Shown: positions 2-38,201 of the stretch, piece by piece | How the letters are laid out: the number at the start of each line of letters is the position of its first letter | How positions within the stretch are numbered: the stretch's first letter is position 1 | Translations under genes and position numbers: made by a program | Assembly: GCA_030625775.1 (NCBI GenBank) | Contig: DAOUQC010000018.1 | Span: 1 to 60,496 of the forward strand | Origin: Verrucomicrobiota bacterium | GTDB taxonomy: Bacteria; Verrucomicrobiota; Verrucomicrobiia; Verrucomicrobiales; DEV007 | Reading direction: 5' to 3' | Length of the DNA: 60,496 nucleotides | The notes under the pieces: generated by a model | Told to the model about the DNA's origin: nothing | Seen by the model: only the letters and a program-made list of their open reading frames with translations | Databases searched by the model: none

Positions 2-3000
2 GATGATGCAGACCAGTTGCTGCCTCCAGCAGGGACTTTGGCAGGCAATGAGGGAGCGATTAATATTACCACGACCAATGGAGGTAACGTGACGCTAAGA
101 GGTAGCCAGGCAGCGACTGGAGTTGGTGGAGATCATATCGACAGTTATGCACAAGTGGGGCACGGAGGTCATTTGACTTCAGGCGATCACAGTGGTGCGA
201 TTACAGTGGATAGCGCAGGTTCGGTTCTAGTGCAGGGAGGTGTTAATAGTGATGATGGTGAGGATCGAAATTATGCTCAAATCGGACATGGTGGAGACTC
301 TGCTGATGGGGATATGTCTGGGGTGATCACCCTGATGGCGGCACAGGATGTTGGTATCAGGGGAGGGCTGGGAACGTCCAGTTATGCCCAGGTAGGTCAC
401 GGTGGGAAGAAGGCCAAGGGTGATAAAGCCGGAGCAGTTTTAGTTACTGCGGTCGCTGGAAGTGTCGATATTGTAGCTGGGCAGGCGGGCAGTTCATACG
501 CTCAAATCGGGCATGGTGGGCATGAAGCCGATTTCACAACTGGAGCATTGGCTGGCGATCTGGTTTCGGTGATTGCAGGGACTGATGTCAATGTCATTGG
601 GGCCCAGTTGAACAATGTTAATGCTGCCGCGCAATCTTATGCACAGATAGGGCATGGAGGGCAATGGACTTTTGGCAACCATCTTTCCAATATCACCGTC
701 ACTGCGCAGGGTGGTTCCGTAACATTGAATGCTGGCCTAAGTAACCAGACGAGTGCACAAATTGGCCATGGAGGTTTGTTTAATGGCAATAATGGGGACT
801 TGGTTTATGCCAAGGGAGGCAGTCATTCCGGAGCTATTACGGTCACGGCTTTGAATGATGTGGCGGTCACAGGTGGTCAGCGTGAACGTGCTTATTCTCA
901 AATTGGTCATGGAGGGTTTGATCACGATGGCAATCAGAGTGGATTGATCACGGTCGTAGCAACTACAGGTGATGTGAATGTGAATGGGGGAACAGTGCTG
1001 GATGCGTATGGGCAAATTGGTCACGGCGGCGGCGAAGCTGCAGGCAGTAAAGGAGGAGCGATCAGTGTTACCAGTAGCGCCGGGGATATAGGGATTCGTG
1101 CAGGTAGTGCAGATGATACCTACAGTCAGATCGGGCATGGAGGAACAAATGCATCGGGTCGCTTGCAGGGCAATATTGCGGTGACCGCATCTGCAGGAGC
1201 TGTCACATTGGACTCTGCTTCGGGCGGGACAAGAGCCTATGCCCAGATTGGTCATGGAGGTGATAGCTCAAAGGGAGATAAAGGTGGTGTGGGGCAGATG
1301 ATTGCGGTGACGGCGGCCGATGATGTGCGCTTGCTTAGTGGTGGCAGTATCAGAGCTTATGCGCAGATCGGGCATGGTGGTTATGATGCAGATGCCGATT
1401 TGGTGGATCCCGCCGGTAACGTAGCGAACATCACGGTGATTGCGGGTTCGGATGGCAGTGGCTCGGTGCGCTTGTTGGGAGGTGGTGCTGTTGCTACAGG
1501 AACCAATAGATATGCCTACACCCAGATTGGAAATGGTGGGGCTGTGGCCGGTGGGGATCATGGAGGCTCAGTTTCAGTGACGGCTGCGGATGATGTTGAG
1601 CTGCATGCCGGAAATGCGCGTCGTGATTATTCCATGATTGGTCATGGAGGTTATAATTCGGACCGTTTTGTCGTGGGGCATACGGGAGCTATTGATGTCA
1701 CGGCTACCAATGGCTCGCTTACAATGGGATCCGGCTCAAGTGCAGCTGCATATAACTTCACCCAGATAGGACACGGGGGATTTTGGAGCGATGGGAACCA
1801 CGGGGGTAATATCACAGTGAGCAGTGGTGATGCGATTTCTTTGACCGGCGGCAACGGGTCTTTCAGCTTCAATCAGATTGGCCATGGTGGTTATGACCCG
1901 ACCGGGAGTATGAGTGGAGCCGTGTCAGTGACAGCCGTGAACGATATCAGTGTCTCGGGAGGTACGGCGTCGGCGGTTTTTGCGCAGATTGGGCATGGGG
2001 GGTATCTGGGTGATGGAAATCGCACAGGCGATGTTACGGTGGCCAGTACAGCAGGTGATATTACGGTGAATGGTGGCAGTGGTGCGAATTCCTATGCGCA
2101 GTTAGGGCATGGAGGTGCCGGTAGTAATGGTGCCATGGGTGGTAAGATTGATGTGATTGCTTCGCAGGATGTTTTGTTGACGGGTGTGGATACCACTGAT
2201 CAGTATGCGATGATAGGGCATGGTTTTCCTGGCATGGCAGGATCAGCATCAGGTGATGTGTGGGTGCGAGCGGGGCGTGATGTAACTTTGATGAATAGTT
2301 TCATTGGTCACCGGACGGGAACTTATAGCAGTGGCAACACTTGGGTTGGTGTAGGGCAAACTTTGACGGCAGACGCAAATAGCCAGTTCAACAGTGCTGC
2401 CAATGGAGTGGGAGGGGAGTTACGTTTTTACATTGATAATGCAAGCCCGACCACCGGGGATGCTGTGAATGCGGCGACTTTGCTCAACGGGGTGGCGCAT
2501 GGAGCGTCCTTGTTCCCGAACGCCGTAGGTGCCTATACCTTTGGGAATGGTCCTTACGCTTCAGCGGCGCAGTTGGTGAATGGTAATTTCGCTTATTACA
2601 CACCCAACTGGCAGGGTTATTTCAACTATGAGGTTGATGGGACTGATGCGGGAAATATTGTAGCGGCTTTGGGAAGTGGTGAGGTGATTCTTTCACGGGA
2701 ATTGGGACAGCTTACTTTCGGAGCGCTGCCGGATGTGGATGGGGATAATATCCAGTATATCAATGTGAATTCAGCTATCAGTTTTAACTCGGCAAATGCG
2801 CTGACTTTCCGTGCGACGGGAAACATCAATTTCAATGCAGGGGTTCAGAACGCAGGAGCAGGTGCGATTAATGTGGCTGCCGGATGGGATGGAACGACGG
2901 ATGCTTTCATCGCACCTCCGGGAACCATTCCTGCACCGGGAACTCCTCCAGGGCTGAGTGATTTTTCATTGATCCTGGCAGATGTGAATGCCTGGGGGAA

Positions 3001-6000
3001 TAACAATGGATTGGTGCGTATTGGCGATGGCTTGCAGGCGGCAGGAGTTGGAGTGGGTTCCCTGACTGGTCAAAGCAGTGTGATGGGCTACGGAGTGAGC
3101 TTGACGGGTAGTGGAGGGGGATTTGCGAAGATTGGATATACAGGCGCGGCATCAGGTAATATTGTGGTTTATGCCAAAGACACGGTGACTCTCACAGGGG
3201 GAAGCAGATATGATAATGCTCACGCTCAAATTGGTCATGGAGGTTATATTGTCGCGGGAGATAAGAACGGAAATATTACGGTTGATGCTGGAAACGGGGT
3301 GTTCTTAATGGCTGGGGATCCTGCTGGAACCGGACGTTTTGCATCTGCACAGATTGGTCATGGAGGACGGGGTACCGCAGGTGGTAATGATCTGGCTGGA
3401 GATATTACAGTGAGTGGAGGAACGGGTGCTGTGAGTTTGATTGCCGGACAGGTGCTGGGAACTCAAGATTTCAGATCTGCACAGATTGGACATGGGGGGG
3501 CGCATGACGCCGCAGGTGATTTTAGCGGAAATATCCGTGTGACTGGCAGTGAGGTGAATTTGGCCGGGGGTGCCAGAGGCTCCAATTATGCCAGGATTGG
3601 ACATGGAGGGTGGACATCGGGAGCAAATACAGGGACTCGCAGTGGATATATTTTTGTTAGTACGCCTGGTGAGATATCAATCGATCCTTCCTCAGGGGTG
3701 GCGCAAATTGGTCATCACAATGAGGATGCTGTCGGGACGATTTTTAATGCTAACGTCACTATTGAAGGTTCGTCGATGGATGACATTGTGGGGGATGCGT
3801 TCAGCAACGTGTTTGATGTAAGCTCTGCTACTGGTAATATGCTGCAGGCGGATCTGGCAGGTGGTGATGTGACGCTACATGCAACGGGAACGGGTGGGTT
3901 GTGGATGAACTCATCAGGAAACGTGCTGTATAGCAGTGGAAACGACTTTAATATTCTTTCGGAGTATGATGTTTATATCACCAACGACATCCTGAATAGA
4001 GGAGATGGAGCCGTTAATATAGTAGCAGGATGGGATCCTTCCGTAGCTCCTTTGGCGAGTCCGACAGGCATTATCGCGAATGTGGATATGGATGCGGATA
4101 TCTTTGCTGTAGCTGGAGCTTTTGGAAATAATGGCGGTGACGTTTTTGTTGGAATTGCAGCAGATGGTCTGGGCACGGATACCGGTGCGGCGGCAGATAC
4201 AAATCTCGCTGTGGCCAGTCGCGTTGGTGAAACCAATGTGGCGGGACGTGATGTTAATGTGTGGTCAACGCCTTTGGATACGTCGCGCAGTGGTCGTAAG
4301 TTTGCGATGATTGGTTACAACCGTAATTATTCGGGGAATTCGGCATTGCTGGATGTGAGTGGGGCCATTCGTGTGGAAGCGAATAATGATGTTAATATAA
4401 CGGCTAATAAATTCGCAGTGGGAGCAGAAGGATACCCTGGTTGGAACGACAGTCCGACTAATCTGACTGGCAATCTTGGTTATGGGGCTTTTGCGAAAAT
4501 TGGCCATGGTGGACGGGACTCCCTGAGGACATCGCATTTGAGTGGAGATATCACAGTGGAGGCGGGGCGTGATGTGCTGGCGCAAGGGGGTAAAACCCGG
4601 GAAAATTTTGTGATGATTGGTCATGGGGGGTATGACAATAAACAAGATCTAAATACGGCTACTGCAACCATTGGAGCGGCAGCGATCACGGTCACTGCCG
4701 GGAGGAACGTGAATTTTAAGGGAGGAATAGGGAACGGGGCTTATGCTCAAATCGGGAACGGCGGTTACAATCATGTTGTTAATGATTTCACGGCAAGTGA
4801 TATTTTGGTGACAGCTACTGGAGACATTGTTTTTCACGGGGGCTCGGGTGGCAGTGCCAGCGGCTCCATTTCTTATGCCCAGTTGGGACATGGGGGCTAC
4901 GACTCTGATTTAACCAATGCGGCGATTGCCGGAGGGCAGGGGTTTGCTGGCAATATTTCGGTGAATGCGGGTGGTAAGCTTGAATTCCTGGGTGGGGATG
5001 ATTCGAGCAATTACGCTAAATTGGGCAATGGTGGGACTTATACAAATGGTCAGCATTCGGGTAATGTGACGGTCACTTCAGGTGGAGATATTGATTTCAT
5101 CGGAGGAAGTGGAGGGCAGGCTTCGGCACAGATTGGTCATGGAGGGTTCCGTGCTGATGGATCACATACCGGGAATATTAATGTGACGGCAAACGGTGCA
5201 GGGGGGCTTACTTTTACCGCAGGAAGTGGGTCGCAGGCGATGGCTCAAATTGGTCATGGGGGCTACGAAGCTGACGGCAATCATCTGGGTAACATTGTAG
5301 TAAACTCAGGGACAGGGGGAATCAATTTTACCGCATCAACGCTGGGTTATTTTGCTCATGCCATGATAGGTCATGGAGGACGTGATGTCGGTTTGAGTGG
5401 GCCGGGAGATAAGACAGGTGATATCACAGTGACATCTGCGGGTGGAGGAATTACTTTCTCTGCGGGAGGGGTGAATGCTTCCAATCGCTATGCACACGCC
5501 CAGCTTGGGCACGGGGGCTATGGAAATGCAGTGGTTGGGAATTATAGTGGAGATATTGCAGTGACCGCCAATGGTGGAGGAGCGGTGGCTTTCACTGGTG
5601 GAGGAAGTTATGGAGACTATGTGATGCTGGGTCATGGTGGTTTCGGAGCAGGGACAGGGATCGACGGGGATATGTCAGGCAATATTAATGTGACAGCGGA
5701 TGCCGGTATTAGCTTTACCGGAGGAAGCAATAGATACACTTTTGCGATTCTGGGGCATGGAGGTCGTGATAACGATGGAGTGAAGGGGGGAGCAAGTCAG
5801 GTGATCAATGTGACCTCGAATACAGGATCGATTAACTTTTCTGCTGGCACTGGGACAGAGCGCTCTTATGCACAATTGGGACATGGTGGGGACGAATCAC
5901 AAGGGAACGCAGAGGCGGCGATCACCGTTAGTGCTGCGCAGGGAGGCATTGCTTTTTCAGCGGGGAATGGTACCCGCAGTTACGTGCAAATCGGTCATGG

Positions 6001-9000
6001 CGGGCGTAATGCCGATGGGGATTTTACGGGAGCTGTCACTGTCGCTTCTCAGGGGGATATTGCCTTCAGTGGAGGCAATGGAAACAGTGATGCTTATGCT
6101 CAAATTGGTCATGGAGGCCGATTGGCATCAGGTGTGCAGGGTGGTGATATTTCCGTAGTTAGTTCTGCTGGCGGTATTCTTTTCTCAGCAGGCACTGCGA
6201 CAACCAGTTCTGCAAAAATTGGACATGGTGGTGATGAAGCTGGCGGGAATAAATCGGGGGGTATCAAAGTGGATGCGCAGGGCGGAAATATCGAGTTTCG
6301 GGCTGGTGGTGGGGATCGAGCTTTTGCCCAGCTCGGTCACGGTTCGACCAATGCTTCTGGTGTGATAACGGGCGATATAGACGTGGATGCCACAGGTGAT
6401 GTGATTTTTGCGACAGGAAGTGGTGGCGCGGGTAACTGGAAATACGCGCAGTTGGGTCACGGTGGTTATAATAGCGATGGCAACAAGACTGGGGCGATTG
6501 AGGTGAATGCCGGTGGAGCGCTTACTTTCAGCTCAGTGGGAGTTACGGGTACCAGGGGATTCACTCAACTGGGTCATGGAGGAAGATCCGTGGGAGGAAG
6601 TTTGAGCGGGATCATTGCGGTTCAAGCGGGAGCTGATGTGACTTTTGCTGCGGGTGGTTTTGAAGATGCTTATTCTCAACTGGGGCATGGTGGAACCAGT
6701 GCGAGTGGCGCCAAGACAGGGAATATAACGGTCGTGGGTGGAGGTGATGTGGTATTGACTGCCGGGCAGGCCGTTGCGGCTTACGCTCAGATTGGTCATG
6801 GTGGTAAGAGCGCAAGTGGAGCTGCGGATGGTTCTATTCGCATAGATTCGGCTAAGAAAGTGTCCTTAACGGGAGGAAGCAGCTCGACGGATTTGGATCA
6901 GGTATATGCCCAGATTGGTCACGGCGGTTTTGATAATAACAGCAATCTTGGCAAAGCCGGGGATCAGATCATTGTGATTGCCCAAGAGGGGATCGCTGTG
7001 ACGGGTGGGACGACAACTAATGGTGGTGCGGTTGGTTATTATGCCCAAATTGGTAACGGGGGGTATGAATCCGACGGAGTGCTGACCGGTGACATTTTCT
7101 TGAACTATGATCCGCTGACAGGCATGGTTGCAGGTGGTGGTGATCTGGTTCTCAATGGGGGAAGCGGTGCTCACGGAACTTACGCACAAGTGGGGCATGG
7201 CGGACGTAATCTGGAGGGAGCCAAGGTGGGCAATATCCTGATTGGCCGGGTGGACAATGTGACTTTGATTGGTGGAAGTAATTTTAATTATGCCCAGATT
7301 GGTCATGGGGGTGATGATAACAGTGATGCGCTGGATGGGAATGGCAATGCAACGGGTTCGATAGAAGTGAACGCGGTCGCAGGGAAGGTGACTCTTACGG
7401 CAGGCAGTGGGAATAATTCCTACGCCCAGATTGGTCATGGTGGAGAGCGCAATGATGCTGATTTCAGTGGGGCGGTTATCGTGAATGCCAGCGCCGGGGT
7501 TGAAGCGACTGCCGGCGGGGCCACTTCCTACGCGCAGATCGGACATGGCGGAGTGAACGCTGATGGTGACCACAGTGGGGCAATCACGGTGAATGCCGGT
7601 GCGGGAAATATTGTCTTTACCGCAGGGGCGGGCAGTAACGCCTACGCACAAATTGGCCACGGAGGGACAGATACAGCGGGGGCAATCTCTAATGCTCTGA
7701 TTTCGGTTGATACGGCGGGTGCGATTGATTTGAATGCGGGTTCCGGGGGCAGCGCTTATGCCCAGATTGGTCATGGTGGTTACAATACAATGACGATGAC
7801 CGTGACCAGCTCGAATATCCTGATCAATACGGCAGCTGGATCCGGAACCGGAGATATCACTTTGGATGGAGGCGGGGTGAACAGTTATGCACAGATCGGA
7901 CATGGGGGCGCACGCAGCGACGGCAACGCTAATTTTGGAACCAAGTCCGGTGATATTACGATCGACAAGGTGGCCAATATTGTTCTGACGGGAGGAACAA
8001 GCACCGACTCTTATACCCAGATTGGGCACGGCGGTGAAGGTGGCTTGGGAACAGGAACGGCGGCAGCCCTTTCGGGTGAACTTATTTTGAATGCAGCAGG
8101 TGATCTGCTTGTGAATGGCGGCGGTGGGGCTGACGCCTATTCCCAGATTGGTCATGGTGGTGATATGGCCCAAGGGGATACCAGTGGTAAAATTACGGTC
8201 ACAGTGGGCGGTGCAGTGGATCTGAGTGCGGGTGGTGGAGGTGATGCTTATGCGCAGTTAGGTCACGGTGGTCATGCCAATAATGCTAATCACGGCGTGG
8301 TTGGTGATGTGACCCGGGTGATTGCCAACTCGCTTAACTTCGATGGTGGTACAGGAAGCGGAGCTTATGCTCAACTCGGTAACGGCGGGCATCAGGCTGA
8401 TGGAAACTTCAGCGGAGATGTGTTGGTGAATGTTGACGGAACGACTGGACTGCCGATAGCGGGTGGTGGGGCGTTGACGATGGACGCGGGTTCCAATTCA
8501 AATACCTATGTGCAAATTGGGCATGGGGGGGCGAATGACAATTCCGGCACCAATGTCAAAGCGGGTGATGTGGCTGTAGGGCAGATTGCTTCAATCTCTA
8601 TGAACGGGGGAGGTGGAGTTGACTCTTTTGCCCAGATTGGTCATGGAGGTGATGAAAATAATGGGGCGGCGACTGGATCGGTGGTGGTGGTCTCTGCAGG
8701 TTTGGTGAAAGCCGCAGGGGGAACGGGAAGTGACTCTTATGCCCAGATTGGTCATGGTGGGCATGATGCCAATGGTAATCTTGGTGCCGCAGGCAATATC
8801 CTGGTAGTGATCGGCAATGGCATCGATTTGGACGGTGGAACCACAGGTGAGCGAGCTTATTCCCAGATTGGCTTTGGTGGTTACAATGCCGATGGCACAC
8901 TTGTGGCTGAGGTTTTTGTGAATTTTGATCCATTGCTGAGCAATGCTCCGTTGGGTGGCGGAGCGATTACTCTGGATGGAGGGGGAGCAAGTCACACCTA

Positions 9001-12000
9001 TGCACAGATAGGACACGGTGGGCGTATTAATTCGGGTACCAAAACAGGCAACCTTCGTATTGGGGTGGCTACGGACGTATCACTCGATGGGGGAAGCGGG
9101 GGAAGTGCATATGCCCAGATCGGCCATGGGGGGGATAATGCCGGGGGGAATGCTACGGGAGATATTCGGATTGATCTCAGCGGTAACATGAACGTAAGCG
9201 CCAGCACGGGGGCGGGAGATTTTGCCATGGCCCAGATTGGGCACGGCGGGCAGACGGTTTCAGGAACGCATACGGGCAGGATCGATATTGTCTCCAGTGG
9301 TGCTGGCGGAACTCTGGATATTTTGGGTGGAGGAGGTGGTACCTTTAATTCTGCCCGTATCGGCCATGGTGGCACGGGAACCATTGCAGGCGTGAGCAAT
9401 GGAGATGCTGATGACGCAATCATCACGACTTTTGGTGGGGATATTTCCGTGATCGGGGGCACGGTGAATAATGCTTACGCCCAGATTGGTATGGGGGGAT
9501 TGGCTAATAGCGGAAGTCATCGGGCTGATATTGCCGTGACTTCAACCGGTGGAGATGTGATCGTGACCGGCAATGCCGTGGCAGGGGCTGGAGTCGATGA
9601 CAACTATGCTCAGATTGGCAATGGCGGCGCTCAGCAGACATCAACCAGCCGGGGCAATATCACCGTCAGTGCGCTTAGTGGTTCTGTAGTGCTAACTGCT
9701 GGAGGAGGTAATGCTCCAGCAGAGACCTCCAACTACGCGCAGATTGGAAATGGTGGGCATGAAAACCGCGGTAATCACGGTGATGCCAGCGAAACTATTT
9801 TAGTGGATGTTCAATCGGTAACGCTGCTTGGCGGCACGACGGGAGCCGGAGAATCCTACGCGCAGATTGGTAATGGTGGTTATGGGGCAGTGGGAAATCA
9901 CAGTGCGATGGTGAAAGTCCTGGCAAGTGCAGGAAACATCACCGCAACGGCAGGAACGACAGCTGGCTCTTATGTTCAGATTGGTAACGGTGGCATGCTT
10001 GCTGCTGGAAGTCACAGCGGAGTGGTGAGTGCTCGGGCAAGCGGAGCGATCACATTCACCGGTGGAGCTACAGATGCTTATGCGCAATTTGGCCACGGCG
10101 GACGTCAGGCTCGCGGGGATCACAGTGGTCGTTTGGAAATGCTGACACAGTCGATCACATTTGCGGGGGGAAGCGGGGATCGGGCTTATGCTCAGTTTGG
10201 TCACGGAGGACACGATGCGGATTTGGGAGGGGCGGCAACGGCAGGCAATACCGGTAACGTCAGTCTGGCCGCAACTTCGGGTAATATCAGCTTCAGTGGT
10301 GGAGCGGGCGTGCAGACATACGCACAGCTTGGTCACGGAGGTTATGATACAACAGGTTCCAATTCCGGAAATATTGTCGCCCGTTCGGGCGGGGATCTGC
10401 TGATCACCCCGGGCACAGGTGACGGGGCGTATTCTCAACTTGGTCACGGAGGAACGAATGCAGCAGGCGATGCCGGGCACGCAGGGGCTATCACCTTGAG
10501 TGCAGGCACCTTTGATCTGGATCTGCAGTTCAATGGAGCAGTGGCCAATCGCGATTTTACCGATGTGTTTGATGTGAACATGGATGGAGTGATCGACGCT
10601 GCGGATGTGGTGAATATCACTGATAGCACAGTGATCGGTGTGCGGGTAGGCGTGGTCAATCCCGGGGACGCAGCGGGTATCGGGTCTTATGTACAGGTCG
10701 GACATGGAGGACTTGGTGCGACGGGTAATCATGGTGGGGTGGATCCGGTGGCCAACGGAATTTTACTGGAAAGCACCGGAGGACTGTTGCTGCATGGTGG
10801 AGACAACACCTCCACCAGTGCGCAGATCGGCCATGGTGGACAGAACGCAACGGGAGCCCAGTCCGGACGGATCAAAATCGGAGTCGAGAATGGCATCATC
10901 GTGCAAGGAGGAACGGGGGCACAATCTTTCGCCCAGATCGGTTTGGGAGGGATGGACAACGATGGGGATAAAAACGGTATGATCGTGGTATTCTCCCGCC
11001 TGGGAGATATCAACGTGACAGGTGGAACCGTCGCCGACGCCTACGGCCAGATCGGGCACGGAGGATTGAACAGCGATGGCGACTTCCTGCACGAAGATCT
11101 TGGGCTGTTTGTACAATCGGGTTGGAATACGACGCCGGTGGCCGGGCCGCCTGCGGCTGATCTGACCGTGACCTCCAATACCGGGTACGGAATGATCGGT
11201 AGTGGAGATGCAGGGCCTTCGGGAACGGGTGACCGCATTGGTTTGATCTTCACCAGCTCCACCGGAAATACAACGGACAACGGACAGATAGGTCACTTGA
11301 CAGCAGGGGGAGCGATTCAGTCATCGGGCTCGGTTAATTTGACCCTGGGAGACTACACCATTGGAACCACAGGTTTTTATAAAGAAAGTGGAGCCCAGGT
11401 TGCCGCCCGGGTGATCACGGCGGACTACATGGTGGGAGCCGCTGGTTCGGTTTTTGTGAACCAAGACGTGACTTTTGCCAGTGGCAATGATCTGACCCTG
11501 GCGGCTAGCGATAATATTTTCGTCAATGCATCGATTCAGAATAATCAAGCCGCCGGAGGAGGTTCGGTGAACCTGATTGCAGGCTGGGATGGGATGACCG
11601 GAATCGGGGTGGATCCATTCATCTATGCGAACATTCCACCAGCAGGATTCACTTTTGATCCGGCGTTGGTGGAAGCCGATCCGGCCTCGTATGGCATTGG
11701 AGATGGCGTTACCCAAGGCTTGATTCGATTCGGCGACGGCGCCCAGACTTCCGCATTGGCGGTGGGATCACGCAGTGGCCAGACTCGAGTGCTGGGGCAC
11801 ACCCTGGATATGAACGCCGGAGCTGGAAATGGAGACTTTGTCCAGATCGGATTCCGCACCAGCGCAGGCAATGCCGGAGCCACAGGAGCTATCACTGTTG
11901 AGATGAAGGGTGGCATCACTATGGATGGTGGGGCTATGAGTGGCGCTTCGGCACAGATCGGTCATGGTTCGGCCTATCTGGCGGATGGAGATTTGAGTGG

Positions 12001-13567
12001 CGATATCCAGGTGAGGACTGATGGAACCGTTCCAGGTAGCATCATGATCAATGGCGGAGCCGGACTGGATACCTACGGGCAGATTGGTCACGGTGGAGTG
12101 CAGAACACTGGCAACAAGAGTGGTTCGATCCTGGTACAAGCAAGCGACGGTGACATAGTCCTGACTTCCGGTGCAGGTGAAAAAGCCTCCAGCCAGATCG
12201 GTCATGGAGGCACCAATGCCGGGGCTTCGACCATGCTGGGCAATGGAGGAGACTTGATCGAAGTGATCGCAGGCAACGATGTGTTATTAAGAGCATCGGA
12301 TGCAGGTCTGCGAGCCTATTCACAGATTGGCAACGGAGGATTTAATGCCGATGCACCGTTTTTGGCGGGAGATGTGAGGGTGCTGGCTGGCAACGAGATA
12401 GGCCTCAGTGCTGGAGCGGCTCGACAAGCCTTTGTTCAGATTGGGCTTGGTGGGGGTGCCAGTGACGGAGCTAAAACTGGAGTTATCATCGTGGATGCCG
12501 GTGATGGAGCAGCCGCAGGTAATGTGAACCTGGCCCGGGGAGCGGGTGATGATGCTTTTGCCAAGATCGGTCACGGAGACCAGGCCTTCACCAGTGGAGC
12601 CGTCGGCAGTGCGAGTGGCACTATTGATGGAGATATCCAGGTTACGGCGGGAGAAAGCCTGACATCAGTCGGTGGAATGATCGGCCACGTGGATGACAGC
12701 CTGGGTGGCCCGGCTGTGGTCAACAGTGGAAGCACCTATGTGGCAGTGAGCCGCAACGATTTTATTCCCGATACAATGGAGACTGGAGACGGGATGCTAA
12801 CTGCAGATGCGATGAGTGTGTTCTCGTCTGCTCCAGGAGGGGAACTGCGTTTTTACCTGCCACGTCGTGACAGCAATCAGGTAGCAGCAGGAGTCCTGCT
12901 CAACGGCACCTCGTATGTGGGAGGGTTGAGCGACCCGGCACTGCAGCGTTCGGATGAGTTTTCGGCGGCTTTTGGAGAGCACACCAACTTGAACACTGCC
13001 GCAACAAATGCAGCAAGCCTGGCTCTGACACTTGACCCTATTGATATGGCTAGTTATTCAACTTCAATGGGTAACTACAGTTTTTACTTTGATAACATCA
13101 ATGTGAATGTGCCGCCACCAGTGGTGCCTCCGGTGGAGCAGCCAGTGGTGCCACCAGTAGTGCCCCCGATCTTTGTGACGATTGACGGACAGCTCAATTT
13201 CAACCAGGGAGTGTTCGGCCCGGGATCGCCCTTTGTGCCGGTGGGCCCCTTTGTGATTGGTCTCACCGATGACTACTTCAATTCCGACACCCAGCGCAAT
13301 GATCTGGTGATGTTCGATACCGGAGACAAAAACGGTTGGACTGACGGCATCGGGCCGTGGACATCAAGTTTCGAGGTGGTGTTCCCAAGTGTTGAAGGTG
13401 GTGCCGGTTGGAGCAGTTATACGGTGTATGGTGATCCAAGCTTCACCGTGGGAACTTACGGCTTCGGCTTTGACGGGATCAACAATGCACCCGAGATGGA
13501 CGACGAATTACGTCGTATGCTCGAGAACCTGGAAGCTGAACTGGCCGAGTTGCGAGGCGGGGAGTGA
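2..13567 (+). CDS. Giant beta-strand repeat surface protein (5' partial)
   Basis: The frame is open from the first bases (D-D-A-D-Q precede the first possible start, a TTG at 17), so the gene almost certainly begins upstream. About 4,520 residues are visible. They consist of about 80 units of 35-60 residues, each with a [YFS]-A-Q-[IL]-G-H-G-G core and short beta-type stretches such as G-x-I-x-V-x-A. The composition is Gly, Ala, Asp, Asn and Thr rich with almost no Cys, as in secreted beta-solenoid adhesins of the filamentous-haemagglutinin type. Non-repeat interludes lie near residues 760-1050, 1230-1480, 3700-3960 and 4215-4516. A dockerin/EF-hand-like D-x-N-x-D-G-x-I-D loop is near residue 3515. 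The C-terminus has a Pro/Val-rich linker (about residues 4360-4380), then a roughly 130-residue domain ending in a charged helix. I see no LPXTG motif or obvious autotransporter barrel. A large adhesin or matrix protein is the best inference; the repeat does not match a family I can name. Confidence 0.85.
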   Translation, partial: DDADQLLPPAGTLAGNEGAINITTTNGGNVTLRGSQAATGVGGDHIDSYAQVGHGGHLTSGDHSGAITVDSAGSVLVQGGVNSDDGEDRNYAQIGHGGDSADGDMSGVITLMAAQDVGIRGGLGTSSYAQVGHGGKKAKGDKAGAVLVTAVAGSVDIVAGQAGSSYAQIGHGGHEADFTTGALAGDLVSVIAGTDVNVIGAQLNNVNAAAQSYAQIGHGGQWTFGNHLSNITVTAQGGSVTLNAGLSNQTSAQIGHGGLFNGNNGDLVYAKGGSHSGAITVTALNDVAVTGGQRERAYSQIGHGGFDHDGNQSGLITVVATTGDVNVNGGTVLDAYGQIGHGGGEAAGSKGGAISVTSSAGDIGIRAGSADDTYSQIGHGGTNASGRLQGNIAVTASAGAVTLDSASGGTRAYAQIGHGGDSSKGDKGGVGQMIAVTAADDVRLLSGGSIRAYAQIGHGGYDADADLVDPAGNVANITVIAGSDGSGSVRLLGGGAVATGTNRYAYTQIGNGGAVAGGDHGGSVSVTAADDVELHAGNARRDYSMIGHGGYNSDRFVVGHTGAIDVTATNGSLTMGSGSSAAAYNFTQIGHGGFWSDGNHGGNITVSSGDAISLTGGNGSFSFNQIGHGGYDPTGSMSGAVSVTAVNDISVSGGTASAVFAQIGHGGYLGDGNRTGDVTVASTAGDITVNGGSGANSYAQLGHGGAGSNGAMGGKIDVIASQDVLLTGVDTTDQYAMIGHGFPGMAGSASGDVWVRAGRDVTLMNSFIGHRTGTYSSGNTWVGVGQTLTADANSQFNSAANGVGGELRFYIDNASPTTGDAVNAATLLNGVAHGASLFPNAVGAYTFGNGPYASAAQLVNGNFAYYTPNWQGYFNYEVDGTDAGNIVAALGSGEVILSRELGQLTFGALPDVDGDNIQYINVNSAISFNSANALTFRATGNINFNAGVQNAGAGAINVAAGWDGTTDAFIAPPGTIPAPGTPPGLSDFSLILADVNAWGNNNGLVRIGDGLQAAGVGVGSLTGQSSVMGYGVSLTGSGGGFAKIGYTGAASGNIVVYAKDTVTLTGGSRYDNAHAQIGHGGYIVAGDKNGNITVDAGNGVFLMAGDPAGTGRFASAQIGHGGRGTAGGNDLAGDITVSGGTGAVSLIAGQVLGTQDFRSAQIGHGGAHDAAGDFSGNIRVTGSEVNLAGGARGSNYARIGHGGWTSGANTGTRSGYIFVSTPGEISIDPSSGVAQIGHHNEDAVGTIFNANVTIEGSSMDDIVGDAFSNVFDVSSATGNMLQADLAGGDVTLHATGTGGLWMNSSGNVLYSSGNDFNILSEYDVYITNDILNRGDGAVNIVAGWDPSVAPLASPTGIIANVDMDADIFAVAGAFGNNGGDVFVGIAADGLGTDTGAAADTNLAVASRVGETNVAGRDVNVWSTPLDTSRSGRKFAMIGYNRNYSGNSALLDVSGAIRVEANNDVNITANKFAVGAEGYPGWNDSPTNLTGNLGYGAFAKIGHGGRDSLRTSHLSGDITVEAGRDVLAQGGKTRENFVMIGHGGYDNKQDLNTATATIGAAAITVTAGRNVNFKGGIGNGAYAQIGNGGYNHVVNDFTASDILVTATGDIVFHGGSGGSASGSISYAQLGHGGYDSDLTNAAIAGGQGFAGNISVNAGGKLEFLGGDDSSNYAKLGNGGTYTNGQHSGNVTVTSGGDIDFIGGSGGQASAQIGHGGFRADGSHTGNINVTANGAGGLTFTAGSGSQAMAQIGHGGYEADGNHLGNIVVNSGTGGINFTASTLGYFAHAMIGHGGRDVGLSGPGDKTGDITVTSAGGGITFSAGGVNASNRYAHAQLGHGGYGNAVVGNYSGDIAVTANGGGAVAFTGGGSYGDYVMLGHGGFGAGTGIDGDMSGNINVTADAGISFTGGSNRYTFAILGHGGRDNDGVKGGASQVINVTSNTGSINFSAGTGTERSYAQLGHGGDESQGNAEAAITVSAAQGGIAFSAGNGTRSYVQIGHGGRNADGDFTGAVTVASQGDIAFSGGNGNSDAYAQIGHGGRLASGVQGGDISVVSSAGGILFSAGTATTSSAKIGHGGDEAGGNKSGGIKVDAQGGNIEFRAGGGDRAFAQLGHGSTNASGVITGDIDVDATGDVIFATGSGGAGNWKYAQLGHGGYNSDGNKTGAIEVNAGGALTFSSVGVTGTRGFTQLGHGGRSVGGSLSGIIAVQAGADVTFAAGGFEDAYSQLGHGGTSASGAKTGNITVVGGGDVVLTAGQAVAAYAQIGHGGKSASGAADGSIRIDSAKKVSLTGGSSSTDLDQVYAQIGHGGFDNNSNLGKAGDQIIVIAQEGIAVTGGTTTNGGAVGYYAQIGNGGYESDGVLTGDIFLNYDPLTGMVAGGGDLVLNGGSGAHGTYAQVGHGGRNLEGAKVGNILIGRVDNVTLIGGSNFNYAQIGHGGDDNSDALDGNGNATGSIEVNAVAGKVTLTAGSGNNSYAQIGHGGERNDADFSGAVIVNASAGVEATAGGATSYAQIGHGGVNADGDHSGAITVNAGAGNIVFTAGAGSNAYAQIGHGGTDTAGAISNALISVDTAGAIDLNAGSGGSAYAQIGHGGYNTMTMTVTSSNILINTAAGSGTGDITLDGGGVNSYAQIGHGGARSDGNANFGTKSGDITIDKVANIVLTGGTSTDSYTQIGHGGEGGLGTGTAAALSGELILNAAGDLLVNGGGGADAYSQIGHGGDMAQGDTSGKITVTVGGAVDLSAGGGGDAYAQLGHGGHANNANHGVVGDVTRVIANSLNFDGGTGSGAYAQLGNGGHQADGNFSGDVLVNVDGTTGLPIAGGGALTMDAGSNSNTYVQIGHGGANDNSGTNVKAGDVAVGQIASISMNGGGGVDSFAQIGHGGDENNGAATGSVVVVSAGLVKAAGGTGSDSYAQIGHGGHDANGNLGAAGNILVVIGNGIDLDGGTTGERAYSQIGFGGYNADGTLVAEVFVNFDPLLSNAPLGGGAITLDGGGASHTYAQIGHGGRINSGTKTGNLRIGVATDVSLDGGSGGSAYAQIGHGGDNAGGNATGDIRIDLSGNMNVSASTGAGDFAMAQIGHGGQTVSGTHTGRIDIVSSGAGGTLDILGGGGGTFNSARIGHGGTGTIAGVSNGDADDAIITTFGGDISVIGGTVNNAYAQIGMGGLANSGSHRADIAVTSTGGDVIVTGNAVAGAGVDDNYAQIGNGGAQQTSTSRGNITVSALSGSVVLTAGGGNAPAETSNYAQIGNGGHENRGNHGDASETILVDVQSVTLLGGTTGAGESYAQIGNGGYGAVGNHSAMVKVLASAGNITATAGTTAGSYVQIGNGGMLAAGSHSGVVSARASGAITFTGGATDAYAQFGHGGRQARGDHSGRLEMLTQSITFAGGSGDRAYAQFGHGGHDADLGGAATAGNTGNVSLAATSGNISFSGGAGVQTYAQLGHGGYDTTGSNSGNIVARSGGDLLITPGTGDGAYSQLGHGGTNAAGDAGHAGAITLSAGTFDLDLQFNGAVANRDFTDVFDVNMDGVIDAADVVNITDSTVIGVRVGVVNPGDAAGIGSYVQVGHGGLGATGNHGGVDPVANGILLESTGGLLLHGGDNTSTSAQIGHGGQNATGAQSGRIKIGVENGIIVQGGTGAQSFAQIGLGGMDNDGDKNGMIVVFSRLGDINVTGGTVADAYGQIGHGGLNSDGDFLHEDLGLFVQSGWNTTPVAGPPAADLTVTSNTGYGMIGSGDAGPSGTGDRIGLIFTSSTGNTTDNGQIGHLTAGGAIQSSGSVNLTLGDYTIGTTGFYKESGAQVAARVITADYMVGAAGSVFVNQDVTFASGNDLTLAASDNIFVNASIQNNQAAGGGSVNLIAGWDGMTGIGVDPFIYANIPPAGFTFDPALVEADPASYGIGDGVTQGLIRFGDGAQTSALAVGSRSGQTRVLGHTLDMNAGAGNGDFVQIGFRTSAGNAGATGAITVEMKGGITMDGGAMSGASAQIGHGSAYLADGDLSGDIQVRTDGTVPGSIMINGGAGLDTYGQIGHGGVQNTGNKSGSILVQASDGDIVLTSGAGEKASSQIGHGGTNAGASTMLGNGGDLIEVIAGNDVLLRASDAGLRAYSQIGNGGFNADAPFLAGDVRVLAGNEIGLSAGAARQAFVQIGLGGGASDGAKTGVIIVDAGDGAAAGNVNLARGAGDDAFAKIGHGDQAFTSGAVGSASGTIDGDIQVTAGESLTSVGGMIGHVDDSLGGPAVVNSGSTYVAVSRNDFIPDTMETGDGMLTADAMSVFSSAPGGELRFYLPRRDSNQVAAGVLLNGTSYVGGLSDPALQRSDEFSAAFGEHTNLNTAATNAASLALTLDPIDMASYSTSMGNYSFYFDNINVNVPPPVVPPVEQPVVPPVVPPIFVTIDGQLNFNQGVFGPGSPFVPVGPFVIGLTDDYFNSDTQRNDLVMFDTGDKNGWTDGIGPWTSSFEVVFPSVEGGAGWSSYTVYGDPSFTVGTYGFGFDGINNAPEMDDELRRMLENLEAELAELRGGE
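146..12580 (+). repeat. Array of about 80 Y-A-Q-I-G-H-G-G coding repeats
   Basis: By hand count, 82 sites match [YFSHM]-[AVSTG]-[QKMR]-[ILVF]-G-[HNLFM]-G within the giant protein. The motif recurs every 35-60 residues. The DNA behind it is also repetitive, with many near-copies of gcccagattggtcatggtgg. Variants cluster: IGNGG occurs in four consecutive units near 9610-10000, and QLGHGG in runs near 5500-5900 and 6320-6690. This points to local duplication or gene conversion. The array is interrupted between about 2290-3210 and 3700-4490, and becomes sparse after 11090. Confidence 0.9.
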
Positions 13568-13703
13568 ACTTGGATGGCTGGCTATCTCTGCAAATCCGTG
13601 CTACCTGGAAGTGTTACGTCTCGATTTGTCATTGAAATATTTTTGGAGGATTCTCGCGCTTTCATTTAGTGAATTGAGGGTATATGCTTACTCATCTAGA
13701 AAG

Positions 13704-16700
13704 ATGAAAGTATTGAAATATTTCTTATCAGCTTCGGTTGTGTGTTGCTTGTCTGCACTCACTCTTTCCGCCGAGGAAAACTTGTTGAAAACCTTTCCTT
13801 TAAAGGATGCTCCCGCAGAATTTGAGGGGACAAGATTTGATCTGCTATCACCGGAGAAATCGGGGGTTTCCCATGTTAATTTGATTGATACCAAACATCC
13901 GATGAAGCGGGTTTATCATTCGAGTTCTGCCTGCGGAGGAGTTGCCATCGGTGATATTGATCTGGATGGAAAGGTTGACTTTTTTGCATCCAATGGTCCC
14001 CGGTCCAACTCTTTGTATCTGCAGACGGGGGAGATGGTATTTCAAAATGCGGCTGAAGCGCAGGCGGTGACGGGAGGAGATGGTGCCTGGGGAGTGGGTG
14101 TGTCGCTGATCGATATCGACAACGATGGGGATTTGGATATATACGTGGTGAACTATGATCATCCGAATCAACTGTTTGTAAATCAGTTGATTAATAAGGA
14201 TGGCAAGAGGTCGAAGGCGGGTTTGAGTTTTATTGAACAAGCCAAGGAGTTTGGTTTGGATGCGGTGGATGGGAGTATCGAGGGGGCTTTTTGCGATTTT
14301 GATCGTGATGGGGATCTGGATATGTATCTACTGACGCATCAGGTGTATCGCGATGGGGGGCGTCCGAAAGATCCGGTGCCTTTGATGAAGGCGAAGGATG
14401 GCCGTCCCGAGGTGATTGAAAAATGGCAGCGTTGGTTTCGTGTGGATCATCAGGAGCACGGGCCAAAAGGTGAGGTGATGTATACCGAAAGAGGGCGTCC
14501 TGATCGCTTGTATCGCAATGATAATGGGAAATTTGTCGAGATCACTGAGGCTGCAGGGATCGCCACTGGACCGCGTTGGGGAAACTCGGTGACCTGGTGG
14601 GATTATAATCACGATGGCTGGCCGGATATATATGTGGGCAACGATTTTTCAGATCCCGATTATTTGTATCGAAATAATGGAGACGGTACTTTTACCGAGA
14701 GTGCACGTCCGGCGCTGCGGCATACTACCTGGTTCAGCATGGGGGCTGCACAGACGGATTTGAATAATGACGGGCTGATCGATTTTCTGGTGGCTGACAT
14801 GATGCCGTCGACGCATTTCATGCAGAAGGCATCCATGGCTTCGATGGGTTCACGCTTGAAGAGATTGCTGGTGGTCCCAGGGGCCCGGCAACTGATGCGA
14901 AATGCGCTGCATTTGAATACCGGAACCGATTATATGATGGAAGCGGGTTACCTGTCCGGGGTAGCGCAGACAGAGTGGACCTGGGCGATACGGAGTGCGG
15001 ATTTTGATAACGATGGTAATACAGACTTGTTTTTTACCAATGGCATTCCCCGGCAGTTCAATCATTCCGATGTGGCTCCGAGTTTCAATCACGCGATGTT
15101 GGTGGGGAAAAACAAATGGGATTATTACGAAAAAACATCGGAGCGCCGTGAGCAGAACATGGCGTATCAGAATCAGGGGGGGCTGAAATTTGAGAATGTA
15201 AGCAAAAAGTGGGGCTTGGATCATGTGAGTATGAGTTACGGCGCATCGATAGGCGATTTGAATGGGGATGGTTGGCAGGATATGATTGTGGCGAATCTGG
15301 AAGATCCTCTTTCAGTGTATGTCAATCGTGGGGGGATAGGCCATCGGGTGGTGGTGGAACTACAGGGGAGTGAGAGCAATCGGCAGGGGATCGGAAGCCT
15401 GGTGACTATAGAAATGGCAGATGGGGGAAAGCAGGTGCGCCAGCTGTTGCCGACTGGCGGATTTATGGATGGTGATGAAGCACGGGTTCATTTTGGTCTG
15501 GGCGCAGAGAAAAAAATAGCCCGATTGAAAATCGAATGGCCGAGCGGAAGGGTTCAGGAGTTCAAAGGCCTGGCCGCCAACCAACGCTATGTGATCACCG
15601 AGCCCAGCACGGGGGAAGTAGAAAAAAAACCTGCAGTTGAGAAGATTGGTTTGAAATCACCGATGTTTGTTGAATCCAGTGCCTTGAAGGGTTTCGGAGT
15701 CGAGGAAAAAGAATTTGATGACTACGAACGTCAGTCGCTCTTACCCTTGGGTTTGTCGCAGTTGGGACCTGGCCAGGCATGGGCCGACGTGGATGGCGAT
15801 GGCGATGATGATTTTTATCTGGGAGGTTCGAGTGGCCAGGCGGGGCGATTGTTTATCAATCAAACGGAGTCTGGATCCAATCAGGCATTACTGGTGCCAA
15901 GACCGGTGGTAGTTTTTGGCGAAGACGCGGCTTATGAGGACATGGGGATGCTGTTTTTTGATGCGGACAGTGATGGGGATTTGGATCTTTATGTGGTGAG
16001 CGGCAGTATTGAATGTGAGCCTGGAGATAAGATTCTTCAGGACCGTCTGTATCTGAATGACGGAAAGGGAGATTTTTTCAGAGCACCGGTGGGGGCAGTT
16101 CCAGAGGCACGTGAAAGTGGAAGTGTTGTAGTGGGGGCTGATTTTGACAGGGATGGGGATGTGGATCTTTTTGTCGGGAGTCGTTCGGTTCCCGGCAAGT
16201 ATCCGGTGATTCCGACCAGCGTTTTGTTGAAAAATGAAGGGGGGAAGTTTGTAGATTCAACGGCTGGAGTTTCTCCAGGGCTTGAAAAAACAGGCTTGGT
16301 GACGGGAGCCCTGTGGTCGGATGTAGATTCTGACGGTTGGATTGATCTGGTAGTGACACATGATTGGGGTTTGGTGAAAATTTATCGGAATCGGCAGGGT
16401 ATTTTAAAAGATGAGACAGTTCAGAGCGGCATCGGCAAGGAGTTTGGGTGGTGGAATGGAATTGCCGCCAGAGACATTGATAACGATGGTGATGTGGATT
16501 TTGTGGTGACTAATTACGGTTTGAATACCCAATACAAGGCTTCGCTGACCTCTCCTGAACTGATTTTTTATGGTGATTTTGATAAGACCGGAAAAGCGCA
16601 TATCCTCGAGGCTAACTTTGAGGGGGAGGTTTGTTTTCCTCGTCGGGGATTCAGTTGCACCAGTCTTGCGATGCCAATGATTGGCGATAAAATGCAGACT

Positions 16701-17453
16701 TATACTAAGTTTGCCAGTGCTTCCCTGTCGCAGATTATCCCCATTGATCGTTTGTCTGACGGGTTAAGGCATCGCATCAATACTCTCGAATCGAGTGTAT
16801 TGATGAATGATGGAGAGGGCCATTTTCAAGTCGTGAAACTCCCTCATTTGGCACAAGCCTCACCGGGTTTTGGAGTGGTGCTCAGTGATGTGGATCTGGA
16901 TGGCAAGGTGGATTGTTATATGGTACAGAATTTTTTCAATCCCCAGGTTGAGACAGGGCCTTTCGACAGTGGCTTGAGTCTGTTGCTGCGCGGAACAGGA
17001 GATCCTGAAAAACCGTTTGAAGCGGTGTGGCCTGCGAAGAGTGGCTTGCTGGTTCCCGGGGATGCCAAGAGCTTAGCCGTGGTTGATTTGAATAGGGATG
17101 GTCGAGAAGATTTTATTGTTGGAGTGAACAATGCGGATCCCCAGGTGTTTATTAATGCAGTTCCTTTGAAGGCAGTTCATCCGCTGCGGATCCAGTTGAT
17201 TGGAGCCAAGGGGAATCCGCAAGCTCTTGGCGCACGGGTTACGGTGAAAGCTCCGGGTGCAAAATCGCAAACAGCTGAAATTTATGGAGGGGGCAGTTAT
17301 TTGACTCAATCGAGCGACGATTTAATTTTTGCTGTGCCAGAAGTGGAGGGGCAAAAGGGGGAGATTTTACTCGAAATCCGTTGGCCGGACGGTGGTATCA
17401 CTTCGACAAAGTGTGATGCGGCGACACAGTCGCTGTCGATCAAGAGGAAGTGA
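13704..17453 (+). CDS. Secreted FG-GAP/VCBS repeat protein with ASPIC-UnbV domains
   Basis: The frame stays open upstream into the giant gene, but the ATG at 13704 gives a clean signal peptide (M-K-V-L-K-Y-F-L then a hydrophobic stretch to L-S-A-E-E) and about 1,249 residues. At least 14 calcium-binding FG-GAP loops of the form D-x-D-x-D-G-x-x-D are visible, for example DIDNDGDLDIYV, DFDRDGDLDMYL and DVDGDGDDDFYL, as expected of one or two beta-propellers. An ASPIC/UnbV domain follows the first propeller at about residues 548-632, and a second related domain forms the C-terminus (P-L-R-I-Q-L to the end). This is the CRTAC1-like architecture common in Verrucomicrobia, Planctomycetes and Bacteroidetes. 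Its role is unproven; extracellular binding or adhesion is likely. It starts 136 bp after the giant gene and converges on the cyclo-ligase gene with only 18 bp between stops. Confidence 0.88.
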   Translation: MKVLKYFLSASVVCCLSALTLSAEENLLKTFPLKDAPAEFEGTRFDLLSPEKSGVSHVNLIDTKHPMKRVYHSSSACGGVAIGDIDLDGKVDFFASNGPRSNSLYLQTGEMVFQNAAEAQAVTGGDGAWGVGVSLIDIDNDGDLDIYVVNYDHPNQLFVNQLINKDGKRSKAGLSFIEQAKEFGLDAVDGSIEGAFCDFDRDGDLDMYLLTHQVYRDGGRPKDPVPLMKAKDGRPEVIEKWQRWFRVDHQEHGPKGEVMYTERGRPDRLYRNDNGKFVEITEAAGIATGPRWGNSVTWWDYNHDGWPDIYVGNDFSDPDYLYRNNGDGTFTESARPALRHTTWFSMGAAQTDLNNDGLIDFLVADMMPSTHFMQKASMASMGSRLKRLLVVPGARQLMRNALHLNTGTDYMMEAGYLSGVAQTEWTWAIRSADFDNDGNTDLFFTNGIPRQFNHSDVAPSFNHAMLVGKNKWDYYEKTSERREQNMAYQNQGGLKFENVSKKWGLDHVSMSYGASIGDLNGDGWQDMIVANLEDPLSVYVNRGGIGHRVVVELQGSESNRQGIGSLVTIEMADGGKQVRQLLPTGGFMDGDEARVHFGLGAEKKIARLKIEWPSGRVQEFKGLAANQRYVITEPSTGEVEKKPAVEKIGLKSPMFVESSALKGFGVEEKEFDDYERQSLLPLGLSQLGPGQAWADVDGDGDDDFYLGGSSGQAGRLFINQTESGSNQALLVPRPVVVFGEDAAYEDMGMLFFDADSDGDLDLYVVSGSIECEPGDKILQDRLYLNDGKGDFFRAPVGAVPEARESGSVVVGADFDRDGDVDLFVGSRSVPGKYPVIPTSVLLKNEGGKFVDSTAGVSPGLEKTGLVTGALWSDVDSDGWIDLVVTHDWGLVKIYRNRQGILKDETVQSGIGKEFGWWNGIAARDIDNDGDVDFVVTNYGLNTQYKASLTSPELIFYGDFDKTGKAHILEANFEGEVCFPRRGFSCTSLAMPMIGDKMQTYTKFASASLSQIIPIDRLSDGLRHRINTLESSVLMNDGEGHFQVVKLPHLAQASPGFGVVLSDVDLDGKVDCYMVQNFFNPQVETGPFDSGLSLLLRGTGDPEKPFEAVWPAKSGLLVPGDAKSLAVVDLNRDGREDFIVGVNNADPQVFINAVPLKAVHPLRIQLIGAKGNPQALGARVTVKAPGAKSQTAEIYGGGSYLTQSSDDLIFAVPEVEGQKGEILLEIRWPDGGITSTKCDAATQSLSIKRK

Positions 17454-19491: not shown

Positions 19492-20238
19492 TCAAGATTC
19501 AGCTTTCCAGCCGAGGGGTCCAGCAGCTTCATGAGCGTGACGAATAACGGAATTGCTTAGAGACTTAATGTCAGCGGCTTTTATTCGTGAGGTTGGCCCG
19601 CCGCACATCAAGGCTATGAAATTGGGTCGATGATTGCAGGGAAGAGGTGCCGCGATGACGTAGCGGTCTGCCGTTTTTTCAACGGCATAGCCCAGTTTAC
19701 GGATAGTTGCTAATTCAGCTAACAGCGATTTGGGTGAGGGGAGGGGCTTGAATCCTGACTTCTGGTCAAACTCAAGGCACTCGAGAACATAATCCTCCTC
19801 GCAGGATGCTAGAATGGTTTTTCCGCAAATATCATTCCATGGCAAACAACGTGTGCCAACGCGGCCACCCAGACGAATTTCCTGGTTGGATACAGCGTCA
19901 TGCAAATAGGAGAGGTGTCCCAGATGGTAGTGGGCGGCAGAAGCGGTTTCATCTGTTTCCCGCTTGAGTGCTTCGACGTGGGGGATCACGGCTTGCCGGA
20001 CAGGCATGCGGGCCTGGAGAATCTGACCAAGTTCGAAGAGGCGTAAACCGAGGTCGTGGCGACCATCTGAAAGCACACGCACGTATTCCTGGGATTTTAA
20101 GGTGCTCAACAGCCGGGACACTCCGCTTTTGTCCATTTTCAGCATGCGGCTCAGTTCCATCACGCCAAGGGGGCCTGCATCTCCCAGAGCGTCGAGAACG
20201 TTCATTGCTTTAACGAGTGTGCCTACCTGACCTTTCAT
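19492..20238 (-). CDS. IclR-family transcriptional regulator
   Basis: The 248-residue protein has an N-terminal winged helix-turn-helix (about residues 7-65: T-L-V-K-A-M-N-V-L-D, then G-V-M-E-L-S-R-M-L-K-M-D-K-S-G-V-S-R-L-L) and a C-terminal IclR effector-binding domain (Y-L-H-D-A-V then R-L-G-G-R-V-G-T-R-C-L-P, ending A-A-P-L-P and I-R-H-A-H-E-A-A). These regulators commonly control catabolic genes next to them. This one is divergent from the beta-propeller/sialidase cluster, with about 58 bp between the two starts, and that cluster is its most likely target. The NfeD, M48 and cyclo-ligase genes follow on the same strand. Confidence 0.92.
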   Translation of the reverse strand: MKGQVGTLVKAMNVLDALGDAGPLGVMELSRMLKMDKSGVSRLLSTLKSQEYVRVLSDGRHDLGLRLFELGQILQARMPVRQAVIPHVEALKRETDETASAAHYHLGHLSYLHDAVSNQEIRLGGRVGTRCLPWNDICGKTILASCEEDYVLECLEFDQKSGFKPLPSPKSLLAELATIRKLGYAVEKTADRYVIAAPLPCNHRPNFIALMCGGPTSRIKAADIKSLSNSVIRHAHEAAGPLGWKAES

Positions 20239-20296
20239 GGGAAAAGATTACAATTATTTGTTGCGTAATGCAAGAGGCTATTTTAAATATAGCAAC
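20239..20296. promoter_or_regulatory. Divergent promoter region with candidate IclR operator
   Basis: This short spacer separates the IclR start (20238, minus) from the first propeller gene start (20297, plus). It holds an imperfect palindrome, TTGCGTAATGCAA, at 20261-20273 (one mismatched pair around the central A). IclR-type proteins bind such short A/T-centred dyads. An AT-rich stretch at 20279-20290 (tattttaaatat) could contain a -10 element for the rightward gene, with TTGCGT or TTGTTG as a weak -35. Operator and promoter are inferred from position and symmetry only. Confidence 0.4.
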
Positions 20297-21700: not shown

Positions 21701-21742
21701 TAATGGCGTTAACTCAAGATTGAAAAAATAAAAGACTCCCCT

Positions 21743-23137: not shown

Positions 23138-23168
23138 GTTTGTTTCCAAGTAAACCCTTCCTATTGAG

Positions 23169-25109: not shown

Positions 25110-25165
25110 ATGAATATCCTGACGGGTCAGGACTATTTGTAAATCACCCCCCACTACAAAACCTA

Positions 25166-26647: not shown

Positions 26648-26680
26648 AATCAATCTCTCACTCAAAACCCTAAAGATAAA

Positions 26681-27904: not shown

Positions 27905-27953
27905 TTAATACTTGTTGTAAGCCCCTTCACCTAGTCACCCCATTGCAAAAAAA

Positions 27954-35611: not shown

Positions 35612-35706
35612 CGGCGCTTCCAAGCCCGTTGTCACGCTGATGTTTTGGTGTGCCTGTGTCTCTGTGCTGATTGTGCGGGGATTGTTTTTCCCTTGGAACT
35701 ATCGTC

Positions 35707-36999: not shown

Positions 37000-37031
37000 G
37001 TGATTCACATAATTTGTTCCTCATTGATTTT

Positions 37032-38198: not shown

Positions 38199-38201
38199 AT
38201 T

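Follow-up and report, generated by a model that had tools for sequence, protein, structure and literature searches.

The window analysed here, a stretch of 60,496 nucleotides from a Verrucomicrobiota bacterium, opens with a giant open reading frame (ORF) that probably encodes a giant two-partner-secretion (TPS) exoprotein of the FHA-like kind, whose passenger would fold as a beta-helix of an undescribed repeat with an internal, structural His ladder. The first base of the window is also that of contig C28, in a 4.88-Mb genome of 158 contigs, so that the product of this ORF, whose 5' end is cut by the contig edge, is seen without its N-terminus (Table 1). In the model that we favour, a unit of about 38 residues (YAQIGHGG..A.GD.SG.I.V...GD..L.GG) would form one wide coil, with the GHGG His sitting at a turn, directed towards the core next to the SGxI-strand Ile and stacking on its counterpart of the next coil at about 4.8 Å. 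The His ladder could be replaced run by run by ladders of Asn, Gln or small/aliphatic residues, and it would most likely stabilise the turn and hold the coils in register, like the Asn ladders known from other beta-helices. By analogy with TPS relatives, the most likely role of the protein would be that of a long surface or secreted adhesion fibre.

Table 1. Features along the giant ORF (positions in the window)
Feature	Position	Strand
Putative giant exoprotein ORF, 4521 aa, 5'-truncated at contig edge	2..13567	+
Array 1, 18 units, end approximate	140..2310	+
Linker 1; AlphaFold2 model partly confident	2311..3214	+
Array 2, 4 units, end approximate	3215..3700	+
Second linker, limits approximate	3701..4483	+
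Array 3, 50 units, end approximate	4484..10540	+
8-unit segment modelled as beta-helix (pLDDT 91.9, pTM 0.91)	5861..6775	+
DVNMDGVIDAAD loop, which we take to be an EF-hand/dockerin-like motif, insert between units	10571..10624	+
4 units past the EF-hand-like insert	10682..11179	+
Final units (array 4), end approximate; one more, degenerate unit ahead of it in the HMM set	11942..12680	+
Repeat-free C-terminal tail: proline-rich stretch, then acidic end	12681..13567	+

The GHGG repeat reported in the initial annotation was confirmed by two counts. A regular expression with the His position left free hit 85 places in the window protein, one of them plainly spurious; the 84 units kept carry H (68), N (11), L (2), F, M or S (1 each) at that position. 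One of these units sits 13 residues past its neighbour and is absent from the set found with a repeat HMM, which comprises 83 units (H 68, N 10, F 2, L 2, M 1) in five blocks of 18, 4, 50, 4 and 7. The exact string GHGG is found 64 times, whereas 200 residue shuffles average 1.1 (maximum 5). Between HMM units, 78 spacings are of 60 residues or fewer (range 36–53, median 39), and the four longer gaps (86, 254, 301 and 339 residues from motif to motif by the regular expression) correspond to three linkers and to the 86-residue spacing that holds the EF-hand-like loop. To call the His nearly invariant was somewhat strong, as it is present in about 81% of the units with Asn as its main substitute. 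Linker 1 with its flanking units (2207–3601) shows 47% and 46% identity to two segments of one related locus (L065), and a tail comparable to the C-terminal tail of the window protein is present in several relatives.

In the libraries searched, the repeat has no name, and the initial annotation had not recognised it as a named family either; membership of a described haemagglutinin repeat family, which would have told against that annotation, did not emerge. The window protein matched no Pfam family at E≤1, which includes PF02415 (chlamydial Pmp repeats) and the curated models of FHA-type haemagglutinin repeats, and it gave no curated NCBIfam match, with a single chance-level one at E 0.7. Neither the protein nor profiles of the unit or of 8-unit blocks matched PDB sequences, and none of the literature consulted describes the GHGG repeat. 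A CdiA-like polymorphic toxin with a C-terminal toxin domain was also considered; the whole protein gave no Pfam domain and, in NCBIfam, only the match at E 0.7, which still leaves room for such a domain.

Relatives were collected by scanning genomes with the pattern [DRF][ANS]YxQ[ILF]G[HN]GG. Of 150 stretches that were confirmed, the best 80 were kept, and these correspond to 57 loci in 30 assemblies (by accession prefix), of which 21 are titled as Verrucomicrobiota groups and nine as others, namely Gamma- and Alphaproteobacteria, Armatimonadetes, Planctomycetaceae, Ca. Theseobacter (Auribacterota), Caldilineaceae and Anaerolineae; misbinning of repeat loci is possible because nearly all of the assemblies are MAGs. 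The longest open frames among the repeat ORFs of relatives reach 8266 aa. The repeat was matched in 18 of the 57 genomes examined among kin of the window genome: 17 of the 36 in its own family (its own genome counted) and one of the 21 elsewhere in the order. When genomes were drawn evenly over the phylum, the window genome was alone among 288 at E≤1e-6 (with at most 26 candidates scored per genome), and a search of plasmids and phages gave no match. The repeat has a patchy distribution that centres on the family of the window genome. Repeat ORFs at three loci (L065, L070 and L079), and less closely at a fourth (L038), have a near-alike C-terminus ending in ACQ; these loci come from alphaproteobacterial and Anaerolineae MAGs, suggesting misbinning or transfer.

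By sequence, the relatives of the window protein are mostly TPS exoproteins. An NPNG-like motif was found in 20 of the 23 relative ORFs whose 5' end lies inside the locus, a count that includes one ORF twice (L053 = L073) and that, like the linker comparison above and the unit, lag, covariation and insertion counts and the calcium-loop and volume tests below, covers ORFs with >30% His at the ladder position, so that His percentages are conditional on this choice. Loci L001–L023 were excluded from the NPNG, unit-composition, covariation and ladder-site analyses. The three ORFs without the motif are those of L034 (NENG), L055 (which starts within the array) and L048 (none). The last, at 9278–12955 of its locus on a 1.16-Mb Caldilineaceae contig, has a DxDGDG-rich C-terminal part. 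PF05860 was found in all three relatives searched with Pfam. A TpsB-like gene of the ShlB/POTRA_2 type is present at 12 of 60 loci, two of these being the query loci C113 and C18 of the window genome, and many loci end at contig edges. The TpsB-like genes share their strand with the adjoining repeat or TPS ORF, and the two lie 2.3 kb apart in L045.

The window genome itself has three TPS domains, on contigs C113, C10 and C18. On C113 a repeat paralogue is followed by TpsB, while those of C10 (L082) and C18 (L083) are TPS-domain N-termini that run off the contig ends, with a TpsB ahead of the one on C18. The window protein could have its missing start in either of these two; no exact overlap was found between the start of C28 and the ends of C10 or C18. 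The N-terminus of the window protein and its TpsB partner are not on its contig, the upstream side lying beyond the contig edge, and secretion of the TPS type is therefore putative for the window protein and inferred by analogy. A repetitive beta-helix passenger, which is a feature of TpsA proteins, is predicted for it.

The downstream neighbour of the giant ORF is an FG-GAP/ASPIC gene, an ORF at 13389–17453 that contains FG-GAP repeats as well as two ASPIC/UnbV stretches and whose true start is probably internal, ahead of a signal-like stretch. Further along the window, an IclR-type regulator adjoins ORFs among which are a weak GH32-like match, just under the cut-off of Pfam, and a pair of BNR-repeat proteins (19492–29171); three ORFs at 20237–25109 gave no Pfam match at E≤0.001. 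An RND efflux set of OEP, HlyD-like adaptor and AcrB-type pump lies at 35671–41360.

AlphaFold2 predicted a confident beta-helix for eight consecutive units (scores in Table 1), with an alignment input of nine partly overlapping segments, all from the window protein. This prediction supports the beta-solenoid that had been suggested from the letters. Foldseek gave no match of the 8-unit model to the PDB at E≤0.001. When the matches of Foldseek itself were re-examined with VIA-align, the top beta-helices were the SRRP adhesin (Z 15.7) and HxuA (Z 15.3), with HMW1 at Z 14.2 (rmsd 2.1 Å) and FHA at Z 12.3; unrelated beta-helices such as pectate lyases, polygalacturonases and tailspikes score Z 9–13, and the ranking gives the fold class of the model and not a function. 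The model that joins linker 1 to an array is partly confident (mean pLDDT 68.5). A very long stiff fibre, also put forward in the initial annotation, is plausible by analogy to FHA; with the linker modelled at this low confidence, an uninterrupted rod stays conjectural. A beta-helix rises 4.8 Å per coil, and 84 units would come to about 40 nm, plus the linkers and the missing start.

Covariation was measured as the mean excess mutual information over within-ORF permutations, in 2499 neighbour pairs from the 2954 of 3038 units in which the first motif Gly is present. The strongest excess is between a column and the same column of the next unit (0.064), followed by offset -25 (0.029), which is the core pair of columns 31 and 6, and by offsets 1–2 (0.0175–0.022); other offsets give about 0.005–0.011. 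The core columns compensate in size, F31 going with L6 and L31 with I6, and some couplings are directional: column 5 of one unit with column 3 of the next gives 0.142 (z 67) versus 0.006 (z 2.6) reversed, and column 33 with column 4 of the next gives 0.049 versus -0.001. Insertions within units fall mainly after columns 11, 15, 19 and 25, and the length-variable loops there would project outward and bear the surface functions.

At the ladder site itself, the 3038 HMM units have H in 81%, N in 12% and a charged residue in 0.1% (ORFs preselected for >30% His, three of 59 removed as duplicates). The site couples to its counterpart in the following unit, as well as to columns 21, 19, 17 and 18; I or V fills column 21 in 94% of units, and a charged residue in none. 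A count free of the His filter, in 59 of the 62 ORFs with at least five units (same loci, window not included), gave 2994 units with H in 2344, N in 359, small/aliphatic residues in 197, Q in 91 and others in three. Compared with permutation, like neighbours are in excess (HH z 13.7, NN z 11.3, QQ z 6.2, small/aliphatic pairs z 12.8), and H is depleted next to N (z -13.3), to small/aliphatic residues (z -16.5) and to Q (z -4.8). In these 59 ORFs Thr occupies column 21 in 41% of Gln units versus 1% of His units. The C113 paralogue (L081, 4999–16578) reads YAQLGQGG in most units, and Gln fills the ladder site in 31 of its 44 units; Thr at column 21 accompanies 19 of these Gln residues, and His units flank most of the Gln runs. 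Volume compensation between the His site and the rest of the unit was tested at 13 positions; H and N units differ at motif positions 17 (p 0.0064), 21 (p 0.003) and 1 (p 0.034), all uncorrected, and no clear trend was seen. A calcium loop formed by Asp/Asn at motif positions 10, 12 and 16 was rejected, with no co-occurrence at p<0.05 in 366 units of 37 aa; this test and the volume test left out units of fewer than 12 residues. A buried, stacked, structural position fits these data on the ladder site best, and we infer the burial of the side chain in the window protein from the lack of charge and the couplings of the site, and the stacking from the covariation and the fold spans, which support the stacked His of the initial annotation.

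An arrangement in which each unit makes two FHA-type coils of 19 residues, leaving the His about 9.6 Å apart and out of contact, is unlikely. It was our own initial reading, suggested by the 19-residue offset between the AlphaFold2 strands of one unit (residues 2–6 and 21–25) and by the arithmetic of 38 = 2 x 19, and it was dropped on the evidence of span and covariation. Residues 8–193 of 3t9g, presumably about 8 coils, align over model residues 1–292 (of 305) at 3.4 Å, and since targets of about 8 coils span almost the entire 8-unit model, this fits one coil per unit. Columns of one unit that lie 19 residues apart show an excess of 0.0068, which is background, while the same column of the next unit dominates, so that, of the one or two turns suggested earlier, one is most likely. 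It is very unlikely that the agreement between neighbours reflects segmental duplication or regional drift rather than contact between coils. Regional effects do exist: clustering at the Ile site (column 6) decays slowly over lags, columns 31–31 and 31–6 are still coupled at lag 5, which is a regional effect, and the class that is neither H nor N is enriched about 3x at lags 1–4 and still 2.4x at lag 8. N also occurs next to small/aliphatic residues more often than expected (71 versus 38.4, z 6.0), often at the borders of small/aliphatic runs, and with the regional class this means that the clustering is not purely due to contact of like with like. Asn–Asn neighbours, however, are enriched 2.38x at lag 1 (z 11.7) and only 1.0–1.1x at lags 2–4, and in the 1672 neighbour pairs with <40% identity nine of ten column pairs keep z of at least 7, the self-coupling of the His column being 0.139, while column 3–3 drops to z 3. 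The directional couplings off the diagonal would not be expected from duplication.

An exposed face of His that binds metal ions, as the initial annotation had inferred, is highly improbable. As many as 16 His units follow one another in the window protein, and 40 in L070, which would give a dense array of imidazoles if they were exposed, but the site is almost never charged and co-varies with the core Ile of column 21, and the window protein has no Cys. Because the site turns to Gln, Asn or aliphatic residues (Ala, Leu or Ile) along entire runs, with Gln predominating in the C113 paralogue from the same genome, a conserved metal ligand is unlikely, and so is metal binding by the His ladder. 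A functional surface formed by a flat, nearly uncharged stripe of Tyr and Gln at columns 3 and 5, for binding of polysaccharide or lateral self-association, is a somewhat better candidate, though still a doubtful one. Column 3 is Y or F in 91% of units and column 5 is Q or M in 87%, with charged residues in 0.0% and 4.4%, and Q5 pairs with Y3 of the next unit as M5 does with F3. Against this, the loop at column 13 may cover the stripe, column 13 co-varies weakly with columns 3 and 5, and the ligand is purely conjectural. We see only a slim chance that a buried stack of dozens of neutral imidazoles makes the fibre acid-sensitive, as a pH switch for unfolding or release, or even serves as a proton relay over the length of the fibre, in which case paralogues with a Gln ladder from the same cell would be the pH-insensitive counterpart.

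The preferred reading, a TPS passenger of one coil per unit with a buried ladder, is likely to be new in its repeat and known in its setting, a beta-helix within the TPS kind. TpsA proteins are described as large, mostly beta-helical exoproteins, and loops and motifs outside the helix are believed to carry the adherence functions of FHA (PMC5422565), which the title of Makhov 1994, cited there, presents as a 50-nm rod of 19-residue repeats. With FHA, HMW1/HxuA and EtpA (of Bordetella, Haemophilus and ETEC) the relatives of the window protein have in common an N-terminal TPS domain with an NPNG-like motif, in part of the loci an adjoining TpsB-like gene, and a predicted beta-helical repeat passenger. 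Unlike these FHA-type exoproteins, the window protein has no Pfam match, and in place of the 19-residue repeats of FHA it most likely fits one unit of about 38 residues into each coil, with GHGG at the turn and His, Gln or Asn as the ladder residue. In EtpA, the repeat region is required for binding of the blood-group A glycan (PMC11463764). The closest published analogue by mechanism that we found is the predicted buried Asn ladder of chlamydial Pmp passengers, whose FxxN and GGA(I,V,L) motifs are predicted to be fully buried in each rung with loops pointing outward (PMC10715098). Both proteins would thus combine a short, repeated, buried motif with a ladder and outward loops, each by prediction, although the Pmp proteins are autotransporters and not TPS proteins, have another motif and use Asn instead of His. 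A ladder of His and Tyr also runs along the FNIP/FGxxFN leucine-rich repeat protein Crov588, a viral protein of the LRR fold whose His line the concave side, at which a polyoxotungstate cluster was bound (PMC9525666). It resembles the window protein in having a ladder with His along a repeat protein and differs in its viral origin, LRR fold and surface His.

The family represented here is missing from the copies of Pfam, NCBIfam and the PDB sequences that were searched, and its open frames are as long as 8266 aa. Its thousands of units supply covariation for a fold that is hard to align, and they show blockwise swapping among His, Gln, Asn and small/aliphatic residues at the ladder position of a predicted beta-helix. 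With natural paralogues from a single genome, what side-chain ladders do in beta-helices can be put to the test.
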